Part shown: piece after piece, positions 52,733 to 64,000 of the stretch
Layout of the letters: the number at the start of each line of letters is the position of its first letter
Position numbering within the stretch: position 1 is the first letter of the stretch
NCBI GenBank assembly: GCA_029573725.1
Contig: JAKQDQ010000122.1
Coordinates: 1-64,000 of the forward strand
Source: Verrucomicrobiota bacterium
GTDB lineage: Bacteria; Verrucomicrobiota; Verrucomicrobiia; Limisphaerales; JADLHS01
Direction: 5' to 3'
DNA length: 64,000 bases
Notes under the pieces: model-generated
The model's database searches: none
What the model saw: the letters and a program-made list of their open reading frames with translations, nothing else
Told to the model about the DNA's origin: nothing
Made by a program: the position numbers and the translations under genes

Positions 52733-55700
52733 ATGACAGACGCCAATTCCCGGCGGGGTGCGCTCGGTGCCGCGACCGCTGCGGCCCGCAGCCAATCCGG
52801 ATTCTGGGCGCTCATCGCCACACAATTTCAGGGCGCGTTCAGTGATAACGTGCTCAAAACCCTGGTCATCTTCATGATGCTCGGGGCCGGGCTGACGATG
52901 GCGGAGAAACACCGGCTCGGGGAACTGGTCGGCGCGCTTTTCTCGTTGCCGTTCATTTTGTTCTCGATGGCGGGCGGCTTTCTGGCGGATCGCTACAGCA
53001 AGCGCCACATCATGATCGGGGTCAAAATTTTTGAAGTGGTAGTGATGTTGCTGGCGTTGGCCGGCTTTTTTTTCACCAGTCTGCCGGTGCTGCTTGCCTG
53101 CGTGTTTTTGATGGGAACGCACAGCGCGTTTTTCGGTCCCTCGAAATATGGGGCGCTGCCGGAATTGCTGCCGGAGCGGAAGTTGTCCTGGGGCAACGGC
53201 ATTTTGGAACTGGGCACGTTTCTGGCCATCATTCTGGGCACGGTGACGGCGGCGTTGCTGGCGGAGCATTTCCGCGGCCGACACCTTTGGTCGGGCACCA
53301 TTCTGGTGGCGTTGGCACTGGTGGGCTTGCTGACCAGTCTCGGCATCACGCGCGTTCCCGCCGCCAACCCGGCGAAAGGCTTCAAACTTAATCTGCTCAA
53401 GGAACTGTTCACCAGTTTGCAACAAGCGCGCGGGGACCGGTTGCTCAAGCTGGCGTTGCTGGGCAACACCTACTTTTTCTTTCTCGGCGCATTGTTGCAA
53501 TTGAACCTGTTTTATTTTGGCGCGGAGGTGTTGGGCGTTTCCGAAACCAAGATCGGATTGTTGAACGTGGCGCTGGCCATCGGCATCGGGATCGGCAGCG
53601 TGACGGCGGGCTACCTTTCGGGCGGTAAGATTGAATACGGTTTGGTGCCGCTGGGGGCGTTGGGAATGTCCGTGACCTGCCTCGCGTTGCTCTTGGAAAG
53701 CCTGAGCCTTCCGGGCGTGCTGGCGGTGTTGGCCGGGCTGGGATTCTTCGGCGGCTTCTTCATCGTGCCGGTCACGGCGCTGTTGCAGCACCGGCCCGAC
53801 AGCCGGCGCCGGGGCGAATTATTGGCGGCGGCCAATTTACTCTCCTTTATCGGCGTATTTGCGGCTTCGGCGGCGCATTACGCGCTCACCAGTTGGTTGC
53901 AATTAACGCCGCGCGGCATTTTTTTCGCGGGCGGAGTCATGACGCTGATCGGCGCCGGCCTGTCCTTCTGGCTGCTGCCGGATGCGTTCCTGCGGTTCCT
54001 CCTGTGGATGATTACGCACACGCTTTATCAGATCAAAGTTTTGGGACGCGAAAATATTCCGTCGAAAGGTGGCGCCTTGTTTGTCTGCAACCACCTCTCC
54101 CTGGCGGATGCCGTGTTGTTGCAGGCGGCGGTGGATCGTCCAATCCGGTTCATCATGCTCAAGGCCATGTATGAGAAGGGCATCATCGGGTGGTGGGCGA
54201 GAATCACCGGCGCGATCCCCATTTCCTCGGAGCTGCGACCGCGCGAAATGATTCATTCACTCCAGACCGCGAGCGCGGCGCTCAAGAACGGCGAAGTGGT
54301 CTGCATTTTTGCCGAAGGGCAGATTACGCGCATCGGTCAGATGTTACCGTTCCGACGCGGATTTGAACGCATCATGAAAGGCGTGGACGCGCCGATCATT
54401 CCAGTGGGACTGGATGGCGTTTGGGGCAGCATCTTCAGTTTCGATCGGCGGCAGTTTCTCTGGAAAATCCCGCAGCGCATTCCGTATCCGATCACCGTTA
54501 ATTTCGGTCCGGCACTGCCACCCACGACTTCGGCGGTTGCCGTCCGCCAAACCGTTCAAGAACTGCTGGCTGCGGCCTGGGAGCAACGCCGCCGCCGCCT
54601 GCGGCCGGTGCATCACGCGTTCGTGATCAGTGCGCGACGGCATCCCCGCCGCTTCGCCATGGTGGATGCTCAGAACCGGGCGCTGACGTTCAACGGCGCC
54701 CTGACGCGCAGCCTGTTGCTCGCTCGCCGCCTGCGCCAGATCTGGTCGGGACAGCGCATGGTCGGGCTGTTATTGCCGCCGAGCGTTGGGGGCGCACTGG
54801 CCAATTGGGCGGCTTTGTTTTGCGGCAAGGTGCCGGTAAATCTGAATTATACGTTGCCGCCCGAAGCCATCGCCTCGTGCGCGTCACAGTGCCAACTGCA
54901 AACCATTCTGACCTCGCGCGCGTTTTTGGAGAAAATGCCGCTGCCATTGCCCGGTAAAATTCTTTTTTTGGAAGACTTGATCGGCAGGAAGGAGGTCGCC
55001 CCATCACTGGGTGAAAAAATGGTGGCGTTGTTCCTGGCGCGTTGCGTGCCGGTTAAAGGGCTGGACCGGATTCTACGCGACCGGAGTTTCGTCGCCGGGC
55101 GCGCGCCGGCAGATGCGGATACTGCTGCAACGTCCGATCCGCTGGATCAGCTGGCGACGATTATTTTTTCAAGCGGGAGCACGGGCGCGCCCAAGGGGGT
55201 CATGCTGTCGCATTACAACATCGGCTCGAATATCGCGCAACTTGGGCAAGTCTTCGCCTTCGGTCGCAAAGACAAGGCGCTGGGGGTGCTGCCGTTTTTT
55301 CACTCATTCGGGTTCACTGGCACTTTGATGTTGCCCGGTGTGCTTGGCATCGGCGCGGTGTATCACGCCAGTCCGCTTGACGCCAAAACCATTGGCCATC
55401 TCGCGCAGACACATGAAATCACCTTTCTGCTGGCGACGCCGACGTTTCTGCAAATTTATCTGCGCGGTTGCGCGGCGGAGCAATTGGGGAGCGTGCGTCT
55501 GGTTGCCGTTGGCGCGGAGAAGCTGTCCGATCGGCTGGCCACGGCGTTCGAGGATCAGTTTGGGGTTCGTCCATTCGAGGCCTACGGCTGTACTGAATGT
55601 GCGCCTGCCGTCGCCGTGAATGCGCCGGATTTTCGCGCGGCGGGATTCCGGCAGGTGGGCGCAAAACGCGGCAAGATTGGTCATCCGTTGCCGGGGATTT

Positions 55701-56251
55701 GCGTGCGGATTGTTGACCCGATGAATCCTGATCCCGGGTCGCCGGTGGCCTTGGGGCAAAGCGGCTTGCTCCTGGTGCGCGGTCCGAATGTCATGCGCGG
55801 CTACTTGGGGCAGCCGGAGAAAGCGGCGGCCGTATTGCGCGAGGGTTGGTACGTCACCGGCGACATCGCTGCGTTGGATGAGGACGGTTTTCTCCAAATC
55901 ACGGATCGCCTGAGTCGCTTCAGCAAAATTGGCGGAGAAATGGTGCCGCACATCAAAGTCGAGGAAAAGCTGCACGAACTCGCCGGGATCGCCCATCAAG
56001 CATTTGTGGTGACCAGTGTCGCCGATGAAAGGAAAGGCGAGCGACTGGTGGTTTTACACCGGTTGGAAACCAGTGAGCTGGAGGTGGTCCTGGGGAAGCT
56101 GGCGGCGAGCGATCTGCCCAATTTATGGAAACCGAAAGCGGAGGCCTTCCTGCCTGTGACCGCCTTTCCCTTGCTGGGCACGGGCAAACTGGATCTGCGG
56201 CAGGTGAAGATGCTGGCCACACAGTGGGCGGAGTCGGCCCCGGCCACCTGA
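52733..56251 (+). CDS. MFS lysophospholipid transporter / acyltransferase / acyl-ACP ligase fusion (Aas/LplT-like)
   Basis: A 1172-residue membrane protein of three parts. Residues about 20-420 are a 12-helix MFS permease (SDNVLKTLVIFMMLG, GGFLADRYSKRHIMIGVKI). Residues about 425-620 are a PlsC acyltransferase with the HX4D motif His454-Asp459 (CNHLSLADAVLL) and the substrate motif FAEGQITRIGQM. Residues about 640-1165 are an acyl-adenylating ligase (IFSSGSTGAPKGVMLSHYN at about 810, EAYGCTECAPAV, GWYVTGDIAALDEDG, LLGTGKLDLRQVK). The parts correspond to LplT and Aas, which flip and re-acylate lysophospholipids; fusion in one chain is known in several phyla. The start is ATG 52733. Confidence 0.93.
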   Translation: MTDANSRRGALGAATAAARSQSGFWALIATQFQGAFSDNVLKTLVIFMMLGAGLTMAEKHRLGELVGALFSLPFILFSMAGGFLADRYSKRHIMIGVKIFEVVVMLLALAGFFFTSLPVLLACVFLMGTHSAFFGPSKYGALPELLPERKLSWGNGILELGTFLAIILGTVTAALLAEHFRGRHLWSGTILVALALVGLLTSLGITRVPAANPAKGFKLNLLKELFTSLQQARGDRLLKLALLGNTYFFFLGALLQLNLFYFGAEVLGVSETKIGLLNVALAIGIGIGSVTAGYLSGGKIEYGLVPLGALGMSVTCLALLLESLSLPGVLAVLAGLGFFGGFFIVPVTALLQHRPDSRRRGELLAAANLLSFIGVFAASAAHYALTSWLQLTPRGIFFAGGVMTLIGAGLSFWLLPDAFLRFLLWMITHTLYQIKVLGRENIPSKGGALFVCNHLSLADAVLLQAAVDRPIRFIMLKAMYEKGIIGWWARITGAIPISSELRPREMIHSLQTASAALKNGEVVCIFAEGQITRIGQMLPFRRGFERIMKGVDAPIIPVGLDGVWGSIFSFDRRQFLWKIPQRIPYPITVNFGPALPPTTSAVAVRQTVQELLAAAWEQRRRRLRPVHHAFVISARRHPRRFAMVDAQNRALTFNGALTRSLLLARRLRQIWSGQRMVGLLLPPSVGGALANWAALFCGKVPVNLNYTLPPEAIASCASQCQLQTILTSRAFLEKMPLPLPGKILFLEDLIGRKEVAPSLGEKMVALFLARCVPVKGLDRILRDRSFVAGRAPADADTAATSDPLDQLATIIFSSGSTGAPKGVMLSHYNIGSNIAQLGQVFAFGRKDKALGVLPFFHSFGFTGTLMLPGVLGIGAVYHASPLDAKTIGHLAQTHEITFLLATPTFLQIYLRGCAAEQLGSVRLVAVGAEKLSDRLATAFEDQFGVRPFEAYGCTECAPAVAVNAPDFRAAGFRQVGAKRGKIGHPLPGICVRIVDPMNPDPGSPVALGQSGLLLVRGPNVMRGYLGQPEKAAAVLREGWYVTGDIAALDEDGFLQITDRLSRFSKIGGEMVPHIKVEEKLHELAGIAHQAFVVTSVADERKGERLVVLHRLETSELEVVLGKLAASDLPNLWKPKAEAFLPVTAFPLLGTGKLDLRQVKMLATQWAESAPAT

Positions 56252-56562
56252 CGCAACCGGGACGCTGAACACCGGAGTTCGTTGGCCGCGGCGCACCGCG
56301 AAACAACAGAACCGCGGAGCCGGGATTGGCCGGCATGGCGCTTCCGCATGCCCCTGGTGGGAGCGGCGACGAGTTTGGAGAAGCGGCCGGTTGCGCGTTT
56401 AATGATTCGGTGGGGCGTCGCCAGGGGCACACACACATGCCGGCTTTTGATGGGATGACATCGCCCGAAACCACGCCACCGGGCCATTGGGCGCGCCCCG
56501 CATGGCTGCGGTAAAAACTTTTTCTTGAATTTCAGCGGCGAACCGATAGCATCTCCCGCAGT
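56252..56562. other. Intergenic region before the repeat element, no gene seen
   Basis: A stretch of 311 bases between the MFS fusion gene and the repeat element, GC-rich. Small frames are present on both strands but none looks coding. The full gap to the next gene is 429 bases, unusually long for this window. Confidence 0.4.
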
Positions 56563-56621
56563 CCCAATACGTAACTCGAGACGGATAGCGAGTTCAGTAT
56601 TGGGTGACCCAATGCTAACTC
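56563..56621. repeat. Overlapping inverted repeats (three related arms)
   Basis: Arm A (56563-56578, CCCAATACGTAACTCG) pairs with arm B (56589-56604, CGAGTTCAGTATTGGG) at 14 of 16 positions around a 10-base loop. Arm B also overlaps a second perfect hairpin, ATTGGGT-G-ACCCAAT at 56599-56613. A third arm A' (56608-56621, ACCCAATGCTAACT) repeats arm A, so B can pair with either A or A'. It lies 60-118 bases before the start of the DGGWFG protein. It could be a REP-like dispersed repeat, a mobile remnant or an attenuator. There is no T-run for a simple terminator. Confidence 0.7.
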
Positions 56622-56680
56622 CTGAATACCCACAGCCTGTGAAAAGCAATTCATCTCAATCTGGTTTGCAGGTCACGGCG

Positions 56681-59296
56681 ATGCGTTGCCTGAGCCTGCC
56701 GTTCACGTTTACGACGCTGCTGATCGCCGCGTTGAGCCTGGCGTTGCCCAGTCTTGCCGACAATATTGCCGCCAAAGGCCATGGCATCATCGGCATCAAG
56801 CTGGGCATCGATTCCGCCCCGGGCAAATCCATGTACAGCGGCGGCATACCGCCCAATATCAACGATGAGAATCCCTACTCGCGCGTGGACACGTTTAGTG
56901 CGCAGTGGGACAGCAAATTGGAAGATTGCAGCTTCGTCGGGGTGCTCTGGCCCACGAAGCGTTACGAGGACATCGGGACGTTGACCTTGACCATGGCGTG
57001 CTTTGGCGACGGCGGCTGGTTTGGCGCGAACGGCGTGATGCCGCCGCCGGGCACTCCCTTTCCGCCGGCAATGCTGGCGGAACCGACCGTGCAGGTGACG
57101 ACCAATGGCGGCGTCACATGGACCCCGGTGGCCGCAACCTCTGATTACACGAACATCATGATCAACCACTACCCCGGCGGCCAGGGCGGCACCTTCAATC
57201 CCAACACGGTGGACATCACCTTTACGCTGACGACCCCGGCTTCGGCCGTTAATGGCGTGCGGCTCATCGGAACGCACGGAGGCACTGCTGACAAGAATGG
57301 ATTTTTGGGCGTGTGGGAGCTCGGGGTGGACGCCACGTTTACCGACTCAGATTTCGACGGAATGCCCGATGCCTGGGAGCTGGCCCACGGTTTGCTCGTG
57401 GGAACGGATGACAGTCTGGCGGACCATGACCTGGATGGTCTGAATAATTATGACGAATATTTGCACGGCACGAATCCGGATGAACCCGATACTGATGGGG
57501 ACGGTTACTCCGATGCCATTGAGGTGGCCGAGGGGTCGAACCCGACGGACCCCGGCAGTGTGCCGGGCGACCTGGCGCGATTCGGAACGGCCACCCTGGG
57601 CACGCAAAGTTCCGGGGGGGTGGACACGGAGTACTTTCACGTCGGAATCCAGGAGGACGTTACCGATGGGAACTTTTACACGGTTGTGGACAATTGGAAT
57701 GGAGACCGGCCGACCCTCGCAGACCCGAAAAGTTATGTCGGCATCATCTGGTGGTCCGACTCGCCGACCAATCCGGTCCAGCGAGTTGAATTGGCCCTGG
57801 CGGCGTATGTTGATGGCGGATGGTTTGGCCCCAATGGGATCGGGCCGGCTCCGGGGCAACCCTTGCAACCAGCCCATTTGGTGTCGCCGGCGGTGGAAGT
57901 TTCGCAGGATTATGGCGCGACCTGGACCGCGGCTCCCGCCACCTCCGATTATCTGACGCTGATGAAAGGACATCAGGTGGGTGGCAACGGCGTTCCTAAT
58001 CCGCACTTTGCTCCCGTCTCCACATTTGTTCTGGACCCTCCGGCCACCAACATTAACGCCATCCGCATCATTGGCAGTGAAGGCGGGGGCGCCTCCGGCG
58101 GCTTCCTGGCCGTGTCCGACCTGAAGGTCTTTGCGCGAACGGATGTGGATGAAGATGGCATGGACGATGATTGGGAACGCAGACATGGCTTGATCGTCGG
58201 CGTCAAGGATGACCAGGGAGATCCCGACCTCGACGGCCTGAAGAACTTGTCCGAGTTCCAGTTGCTCACTGATCCCCATGACCCCGATACGGACGATGAC
58301 GGATTAAATGATGGAGATGAAGTGAACGTTCATTTCACCAATCCGCTTTCGTCGGACACCGACACGGACGGCCTGAGTGATGGCGAGGAAATTAACATTT
58401 ACGGCACCAATCCCTTGAATGCCGACTCGGACGACGATGGTTTCAACGACGGACTGGAAGTCTCCCTGGAAAGTCACCCGCTGGATCCGGCCAGCACCCC
58501 GGATAATTTCGCCTTGCGCAATGATGCCAGCGGCCTTCTGGGTGTGGCGAATAATACGTCGGATCCCGGCACGCCCATCTTCAACGCTGGAAGTGCGAGG
58601 AACATTCACGACGGGGATGTGGCGACGCGGGTGGACAATTACAGCAATCTTCCGCAGCCCCTGGGGTATGTCGGCATCGCCTGGACCGCGCCCGTGACGA
58701 ACCTGTTGACCCGTCTCCGACTGGATCAAGCCACCTTCTTCGATGGCGGCTGGTTTGGAGTGAGCGGGGTCGGGCCGGGCGCCGGCGGCGTCCTCTCCGC
58801 ACCGACGTATCTGGGCACGGAGCCGCCCACGGTCCAGGTGACCACCGATGGGGTGACCTGGACCACCATCGGCGTCACCTCCGATTATCTGACCGCGCTC
58901 GAAGGGCACGCGCTGCCGGCAATCGCGTTCGGGCCGCCCACGCGTGCGACGGCGAATTTCGTGTTCAATACCCCGCAGGCCGGCCTCACCGGCGTACGCA
59001 TCATTGGCGCCGAGGGAGGAACGGCGGATAACGGGTTTATTGGCGTCTTTGAACTCGCGGCCTTGACCAGCCGGCCGTCGCTGCCGGTTACCCTGCTCAA
59101 CGCGGGAACGGACAGTGGGAATTTCCGTTTTGAATTCGACACCCAGACGGGCGGGATTTATGAGGTTCAATATCGCACTTCGCTGACCAGCGGGAGCTGG
59201 CAGACCCTGACCACGATTAACGGAGACGGCACCCGCAAGGCCGTGACGGATGCCATCACCGGCGAGACGCGTTTCTATCGCGTGGAAAGCAAGTGA
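56681..59296 (+). CDS. Secreted protein with three DGGWFG modules alternating with calcium-binding repeats
   Basis: An 871-residue exported protein; signal peptide MRCLSLPFTFTTLLIAALSL, likely cleaved near SLADN. A beta-rich module of about 180-190 residues occurs three times, beginning in DNA near 56770, 57600 and 58520. Each copy has an FxDGGWFGxxG core (FGDGGWFGANGV, YVDGGWFGPNGI, FFDGGWFGVSGV), then TWT...TSDY, and ends GVRLIGTHGG, AIRIIGSEGG or GVRIIGAEGG. Between the copies are thrombospondin-type-3-like runs (DTDGDGYSDAIEVAEGSNP, DSDDDGFNDGLEVSLES) that bind calcium. The C-terminal 70 residues, from GGIYEVQYRTSLTSGSWQ to RFYRVESK, are the lineage's recurrent module. The ATG at 56681 is chosen for its signal peptide. 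Confidence 0.8.
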   Translation: MRCLSLPFTFTTLLIAALSLALPSLADNIAAKGHGIIGIKLGIDSAPGKSMYSGGIPPNINDENPYSRVDTFSAQWDSKLEDCSFVGVLWPTKRYEDIGTLTLTMACFGDGGWFGANGVMPPPGTPFPPAMLAEPTVQVTTNGGVTWTPVAATSDYTNIMINHYPGGQGGTFNPNTVDITFTLTTPASAVNGVRLIGTHGGTADKNGFLGVWELGVDATFTDSDFDGMPDAWELAHGLLVGTDDSLADHDLDGLNNYDEYLHGTNPDEPDTDGDGYSDAIEVAEGSNPTDPGSVPGDLARFGTATLGTQSSGGVDTEYFHVGIQEDVTDGNFYTVVDNWNGDRPTLADPKSYVGIIWWSDSPTNPVQRVELALAAYVDGGWFGPNGIGPAPGQPLQPAHLVSPAVEVSQDYGATWTAAPATSDYLTLMKGHQVGGNGVPNPHFAPVSTFVLDPPATNINAIRIIGSEGGGASGGFLAVSDLKVFARTDVDEDGMDDDWERRHGLIVGVKDDQGDPDLDGLKNLSEFQLLTDPHDPDTDDDGLNDGDEVNVHFTNPLSSDTDTDGLSDGEEINIYGTNPLNADSDDDGFNDGLEVSLESHPLDPASTPDNFALRNDASGLLGVANNTSDPGTPIFNAGSARNIHDGDVATRVDNYSNLPQPLGYVGIAWTAPVTNLLTRLRLDQATFFDGGWFGVSGVGPGAGGVLSAPTYLGTEPPTVQVTTDGVTWTTIGVTSDYLTALEGHALPAIAFGPPTRATANFVFNTPQAGLTGVRIIGAEGGTADNGFIGVFELAALTSRPSLPVTLLNAGTDSGNFRFEFDTQTGGIYEVQYRTSLTSGSWQTLTTINGDGTRKAVTDAITGETRFYRVESK

Positions 59297-62989: not shown

Positions 62990-64000
62990 ATGGCAGATTT
63001 GTTCGCCAGACTTCCCCGGGTGGCGGTGGATGGCAAATTTTTCCGGCGTGGTTCAGAGAAACTCCATTTGAAGGGGGTTTCGTACGGGCCGTTCGCGCCG
63101 GGCCGCGACGGACAACCCTTTGCCACGGCGGAGCGGACGACTGCCGACCTGCAACTGGTCAAGGACCTCGGCGCCAACCTGCTGCGCCTCTATCACGTGC
63201 CCCCGCGCTGGTTTCTCGATCTGGCTGCCCACCATCAATTGCTGCTGTTGATTGACATTCCGTGGAACAAACACCTGGTGTTTCTGGACGATCCCGTGCG
63301 CCGCGCGGAAGCGCGGCAGGCGGTTTGTCACGCGGTGCTGGCCTGTGCGCGTCACCCGGCGGTGCTCGGCTACAGCGTTGCCAACGAGATTCCTCCCGAC
63401 GTGGTGCGCTGGAGCGGCACGCAGGCGGTGGCAGAATTTCTGGACGAGCTGATTGGCGAGGCCAAGCGCATCGACCCCGAATGTCTTTGCACTTACGCAA
63501 ATTACCCCACCACGGAGTTTCTGCAGCCGCAAACCCTGGACTTTGTTAGCTTCAACGTCTATTTGCACCAGCCGGCGGCGTTCAAAAATTATCTTGCCCG
63601 GCTGCAGATGTTGTCCGGGGGCAGGCCGTTGGTATTGAGCGAGTATGGCTGTGATTCCCGGCGCGAGGGCGCGCTGGGCCAGGCGGAAATGTTGTCGTGG
63701 CAAACCGAGCTGGCGTTTCGCGGTGGTGTCGCCGGAGCCGTGGTGTTCAGTTTCACCGATGATTGGCATCGTGGCGGGGAGAGCGTGGCCGACTGGCAGA
63801 TGGGCCTGACCACGGCGGCGCGGGAGAAGAAACCGGCGTTTGACCGCGTGAAAGCCGCCTTCCAGGCCGCACCAAAATTTCCGCTCGGCGACAAGCCCCG
63901 GGTCTCGGTCATTGTGGCGAGCTACAATGGCGCCGCCACGTTGAAGGCGTGTCTGGATTCACTCCGCAATCTCAATTACGGGGACTACGAAATCATCCTG
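62990..64000 (+). CDS. Glycoside hydrolase (GH2-like TIM barrel) fused to GT2 glycosyltransferase, partial
   Basis: At least 337 residues; the frame runs past the right edge. It starts MADLFARLPRVAVDGKFF and RGSEKLHLKGVSYGPF, as in GH2-type TIM barrels. The acid/base is Glu133 in LGYSVANEIPPDVV, and the nucleophile is Glu218 in LVLSEYGCDSRREG; the barrel ends near KPAFDRVKAAF. A linker then leads to RVSVIVASYNGAATLKACLD at about residue 304, the opening of a GT2 glycosyltransferase fold (DXD not yet reached). There is no signal peptide, so it is cytosolic. The substrate is unknown. The gap to ndh is 124 bases. Confidence 0.8.
   Translation, partial: MADLFARLPRVAVDGKFFRRGSEKLHLKGVSYGPFAPGRDGQPFATAERTTADLQLVKDLGANLLRLYHVPPRWFLDLAAHHQLLLLIDIPWNKHLVFLDDPVRRAEARQAVCHAVLACARHPAVLGYSVANEIPPDVVRWSGTQAVAEFLDELIGEAKRIDPECLCTYANYPTTEFLQPQTLDFVSFNVYLHQPAAFKNYLARLQMLSGGRPLVLSEYGCDSRREGALGQAEMLSWQTELAFRGGVAGAVVFSFTDDWHRGGESVADWQMGLTTAAREKKPAFDRVKAAFQAAPKFPLGDKPRVSVIVASYNGAATLKACLDSLRNLNYGDYEIIL

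Follow-up and report, generated by a model that had tools for sequence, protein, structure and literature searches.

A single-chain fusion of a GH157-like glycosidase barrel with a GT2 glycosyltransferase, conserved in Verrucomicrobiota

A gene that begins near the end of the window (the whole stretch of DNA analysed, 64,000 nucleotides) codes for one protein in which a clan GH-A glycosidase barrel is followed by a GT2 glycosyltransferase. This enzyme architecture is real, conserved and little described. The catalytic residues of both domains are intact, and we tentatively propose, with confidence somewhat short of even, that the protein is a glucan oligosaccharide synthase that is attached to the membrane, faces the cytosol and contains its own remodelling domain, which would act by transglycosylation or trimming. 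Few single proteins both build and remodel a glucan. In Verrucomicrobiota the fusion is widespread and mostly occurs once per genome, with its two parts strictly paired; only generic GT2 and TIM-barrel models match it, and it points to an undescribed oligosaccharide in this phylum.

The reading frame starts with an ATG at 62990 on the forward strand and is still open at the window end (64000). Contig C145 extends it to 65677, giving a gene of 62990-65677 and a protein of 895 residues. The order of domains is GH-A barrel, GT2, and then two pairs of membrane helices together with a conserved domain of ~85 residues. A DxD (D387/D389) and membrane helices, which the first-pass annotation had advised looking for past 64000, are present downstream. 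The features are as follows.

62990..64000, forward strand: part of the fusion gene inside the window, 337 of 895 residues
63014..63865, forward strand: clan GH-A (beta/alpha)8 barrel, probably GH157-like, residues 9-292 (Pfam, PDB profile, fold match)
63185..63187, forward strand: Arg66, the strand-2 arginine of the GH-A catalytic site, invariant (30- and 64-member alignments)
63383..63388, forward strand: Asn132-Glu133, general acid/base motif ANEIP (alignments)
63641..63643, forward strand: Glu218, predicted nucleophile, motif LSEYG (alignments, LaGH157 match)
63896..64000, forward strand: start of the GT-A (GT2) domain, residues ~303-530, which runs past the window to about 64720 (Pfam, alignment)
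~64757-64870 and ~65333-65389, forward strand: predicted membrane helices, residues ~590-627 and ~782-800 (hydropathy)
65036-65290, forward strand: conserved domain of ~85 residues, residues 683-767, with conserved W, D, E and R

The motifs ANEIP and LSEYG had been reported as 85 residues apart, and E133 and E218 are indeed separated by exactly this distance. N132, E133 and E218 are invariant in 30 of 30 diverse members; in a second set of 64 members, both glutamates occur in all 64 and N132 in 63. Invariant throughout both sets (64/64 and 30/30) are, besides the glutamates, R66, N189 and W259. With an N-E acid/base on strand 4 and a glutamate nucleophile on strand 7, the barrel falls into clan GH-A, and at this level the earlier description as GH2-like holds. 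It does not hold for the family GH2 itself. The only GH2 model matched in Pfam is that of the TIM barrel (Glyco_hydro_2_C, residues 39-231, 2.2e-6), and the N-terminal sugar-binding and Ig-like domains of GH2 were not detected by Pfam ahead of the barrel, which starts at residue ~9. Glyco_hydro_72 (GH72) matches residues 13-138 at 2.5e-6. Across 30 barrels, GH72 is matched in 19 and GH2_C in 18, while no GH17 model matched in Pfam, neither for the whole protein nor for the 30 barrels.

When a profile of the 30 barrels is compared with the PDB, LaGH157 (9fz9) is on top with 9e-25, followed by GH2 enzymes from 1.8e-12, GH158 (1.6e-9) and GH72 (1.5e-7). The fold search, performed with an AlphaFold2 model of a relative with 60% identity (L068, mean pLDDT 87.6), also has a GH157 structure on top (9g4n, Z 31.9, rmsd 2.6 over 297 residues), but GH2 barrels come close behind (Z about 30), so that the fold alone does not decide between the two families. 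E218 aligns with the glutamate of LaGH157 that is alanine in the E224A mutant entry. The stand-alone proteins of the phylum that come nearest to the fused barrel are GH157-like (L064 matches LaGH157 at 3.6e-60) and seem to have export signals at the N-terminus. In the tree, which contains several long rows and leaves the order inside the group unsettled, the fused barrels group with the GH157-like enzymes of the phylum, apart from GH2 barrels (94/90). The barrel is therefore best called GH157-like, and it is probably closest to the GH157 endo-beta-1,3-glucanases rather than to full GH2 enzymes. GH157 enzymes cut linear beta-1,3-glucan (PMC10229575). In one genome, three distinct genes for GH-A-like barrels, all distant relatives of the fused barrel, lie side by side in tandem (L065:5262-9504).

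The barrel is followed, without a stop, by RVSVIVASYNG, and its identification as a GT2 opening is confirmed by Pfam (Glycos_transf_2 PF00535, residues 306-461, 1.1e-35, and related GT2 models). The domain has the motifs DDGS, DxD (D387, D389), GDDVD and QQxGYG. The DDG and DxD of a GT-A fold are thus present; the DxD and the other metal/base motifs are invariant in 30 members, and D340, D387, D389, D476, D477 and D479 in the set of 64. The QxxRW of BcsA-like processive synthases is absent, and an almost invariant QQxGYG is found at the corresponding place. The best named model (NCBIfam) is MftF, TIGR03965, with 177.2 bits and 5e-52, which does not reach the cut-off of 280. An alignment with an annotated MftF from Thermomicrobium has the GT core in common at 34% identity, and this MftF is devoid of QQxGYG. 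MftF adds a cellulose-like (glucose) chain to the cofactor mycofactocin. With MftF as its closest named family and no QxxRW, the GT2 domain may be limited to short chains or may decorate some other molecule.

No signal peptide was seen, and in none of 30 members did hydropathy show a hydrophobic segment ahead of residue ~580, which agrees with the earlier view of one cytosolic chain with glycosidase barrel and GT2. Long members (~800-930 residues) have helices after the GT2 domain and, with one exception among those tested, a second time towards the C-terminus. Membrane helices are absent from ten short members of ~690-740 residues, which form one clade. Since no helix precedes the GT2 domain and a membrane-free form exists, the two active sites are expected on the cytosolic side, in one compartment with the cytosolic sugar nucleotides.

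In the long form the ~85-residue domain lies between the helices; in the short form it comes last. In the genomes scanned it is confined to this protein family; its members have no Pfam match in common, and no sequence match was found in the PDB. Its fold has a middling likeness to kinase KA1 domains, with a best Z of 7.3 that is within the chance range and a best Foldseek E-value of 0.04, and it was assigned to no family.

Among 387 genomes of Verrucomicrobiota, 37 yielded 38 strong matches to the barrel, all of them in long single frames, and there are four further weak matches; recurrence in the phylum, which the first-pass annotation had suggested surveying, is thus established. The picture is the same in the reverse search, in which 374 genomes of the phylum were scanned for the GT2 subfamily: 36 of 36 carriers also have the barrel, in equally long frames. 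The barrel family and the GT2 subfamily are therefore obligately paired in this sample. The lone other match (G371, E 5e-46) is not a barrel-free member of the subfamily. It is an unrelated exopolysaccharide-type protein which, read by eye, joins a different GT2 to a sugar-phosphate transferase. Conversely, barrel-only matches proved to be secreted-looking GH157-like or GH2 enzymes and not the fusion.

In a public genome collection there are at least 562 relatives, and the best 80 loci were kept. All of these can be aligned over most of their length, and 78 have a single frame that spans both domains. Of the two exceptions, L119 is interrupted within the barrel, whereas L141 is cut by the contig end. 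The fusion gene is real and can be put down neither to chance nor to an artefact of assembly. In Planctomycetota it is rare (3 of 343), and two loci, L155 and L156, were read as fusions. The distance matrices of the GH and GT parts of 30 members correlate with r 0.895 (0 of 2000 permutations), a value that shared ancestry alone would also raise. In the plasmid collection, matches were restricted to GT2 domains of other proteins. Our search of the openly accessible literature found no paper describing this fusion.

In the genome of the window and in most relatives, the gene is a solitary one surrounded by housekeeping genes. Its 3′ neighbour on the same strand is, judged by its sequence, thymidylate synthase-like. 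In seven loci (L038, L040, L042, L046, L058, L124, L128), an MsbA-type ABC exporter follows directly 3′ on the same strand, within 80 bp. These loci are scattered over separated branches of the tree (5 changes); the linkage may be ancestral and often lost, the direction of change being one that the tree cannot tell. The adjacent exporters could not be assigned to the glucan-exporter family, as MsbA-type models score higher and no curated cut-off is passed. No exporter adjoins the soluble short form in the loci read, and no maturase or acceptor gene recurs beside the fusion.

One genome (G319) has both forms, a short one (L057) and a long one with adjacent exporter (L058), and would be useful for comparing their functions. 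At L040:7002-15770, in a genome of the same order, the fusion opens a same-strand run that continues, in this order, with the ABC exporter, a methyltransferase-like protein and two more glycosyltransferase-like proteins, so that the product may there belong to a larger glycan. Two other genes in the window were noticed by eye, both on the forward strand. One (52733-56251) has a frame of 1172 residues and looks like an Aas-like triple fusion of MFS-like transporter, acyltransferase and AMP-ligase. The other (56525-59296) codes for a secreted-looking protein of 923 residues with three similar repeats, between which there are Asp-rich calcium-type repeats (DxDxDG).

We propose that the GT2 domain would extend a glucan from a nucleotide sugar, presumably UDP-glucose, with beta-1,3 or mixed linkage being most likely. 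The N-terminal retaining barrel, on the same chain and the same side of the membrane, would cut the nascent chain and either transfer or release it, and its action would set the length, branching or cyclisation of the glucan. The finished oligosaccharide would be exported by a separate MsbA-type ABC exporter, which adjoins the gene in some genomes and is presumably encoded elsewhere in this one. We put this coupled synthase forward because both active sites are invariant, and because of the pairing, the topology, the likeness to GH157, GH158 and GH72, the exporters and the precedent of Cgs. Counting against it are a GT2 that is closest to MftF and has no QxxRW, the position as a lone gene in most genomes, the MsbA-like character of the exporters, and a soluble form that adjoins no exporter in the loci read. 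Thanks to the soluble form of one clade, the coupled reaction is open to assay with no membrane protein involved.

The barrel might instead be a true hydrolase, which would trim or release what the GT2 domain makes, for length control or to clear aberrant chains, without any transglycosylation. This would suit GH157 and GH158, its nearest characterised relatives, which are endo-beta-1,3-glucanases. However, a hydrolase that is joined to a synthase in the cytosol would run a futile cycle unless it were specific to one length, retaining GH-A enzymes can transglycosylate, and GH72 glucanosyltransferases match the barrel in Pfam about as often as GH2_C (19 versus 18 of 30); we consider pure hydrolysis somewhat unlikely. 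Quite unlikely, in our estimation, is a fusion that assembles and edits a glycoconjugate, whether of a small molecule, a lipid or a protein, in the manner of MftF, with the barrel trimming or swapping the chain. The best score and common GT core with MftF speak for it, as do the MsbA-type neighbours, which usually carry lipid-linked cargo, but the score is far under the MftF cut-off, QQxGYG is not in MftF, and a recurrent maturase or acceptor gene alongside is missing.

Reuse of the barrel merely for binding, which the first-pass annotation had offered as a second option, has lost ground. Two folds in a fixed order, with an activity that is only predicted, would also be consistent with a catalytically dead binding or scaffolding module, but binding alone does not require that E133, E218, R66, N189 and W259 be invariant. 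As the invariance covers the two catalytic glutamates together with the GH-A residues around them, we prefer catalytic coupling to binding, and a dead barrel seems very improbable. That two adjacent genes were joined by accident in annotation or assembly could be argued only from the locus split inside the barrel; single open frames in 78 of the best 80 public loci and in all 38 strong matches from the sample of the phylum refute this and leave it practically no probability.

The coupled synthase has relatives in design. A chain that both cleaves and transfers had been called unusual, and this it is, but single-chain combinations of GH and GT have precedents in NdvB (PMC10237404) and Cgs (PMC10901819). 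The pseudomonad NdvB, or 'Orphan' GH17-GT2 cyclic beta-glucan synthase, likewise has a GH-A barrel N-terminal to a GT2 domain in one chain with membrane helices, and its barrel, too, is related to beta-1,3-glucan enzymes. In NdvB, however, the barrel is a periplasmic GH17 domain that is linked to the GT2 by a BcsA-like membrane region (PMC10237404), whereas the fusion has a GH157-like barrel, no helix between barrel and GT2, and one clade without any helices. In Cgs, all soluble domains are cytosolic and the product has an ABC exporter (PMC10901819, PMC11842490). Cgs resembles the fusion in combining synthase and carbohydrate-processing domains in one cytosolic chain, and in a soluble stretch between membrane helices (PMC10901819, PMC11842490). 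It differs in its (alpha/alpha)6 GH folds, as opposed to (beta/alpha)8 here, in another GT family, in six membrane helices and in being far larger.

With the GH157 endo-beta-1,3-glucanases (LaGH157, 9g4n/9fz9; BcellWH2_01931), the barrel fold is common and both catalytic glutamates align, but identity is 17-18%, and the described GH157 enzymes are surface or secreted degraders while the fused barrel is predicted to be cytosolic. MftF aligns with the GT2 core over residues 300-555 and differs in having no barrel, another N-terminal domain and no QQxGYG, the fusion staying under the equivalog cut-off. It is conceivable, though we think it unlikely, that the protein represents a third, independently evolved cyclic or branched beta-1,3-glucan synthase, made up of a cytosolic GH157-like transglycosylase and a GT2 in one chain, with a fully soluble version that would work off the membrane. 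The logic of the fusion resembles that of the cyclic glucan synthases, with other families, another domain order and another topology.
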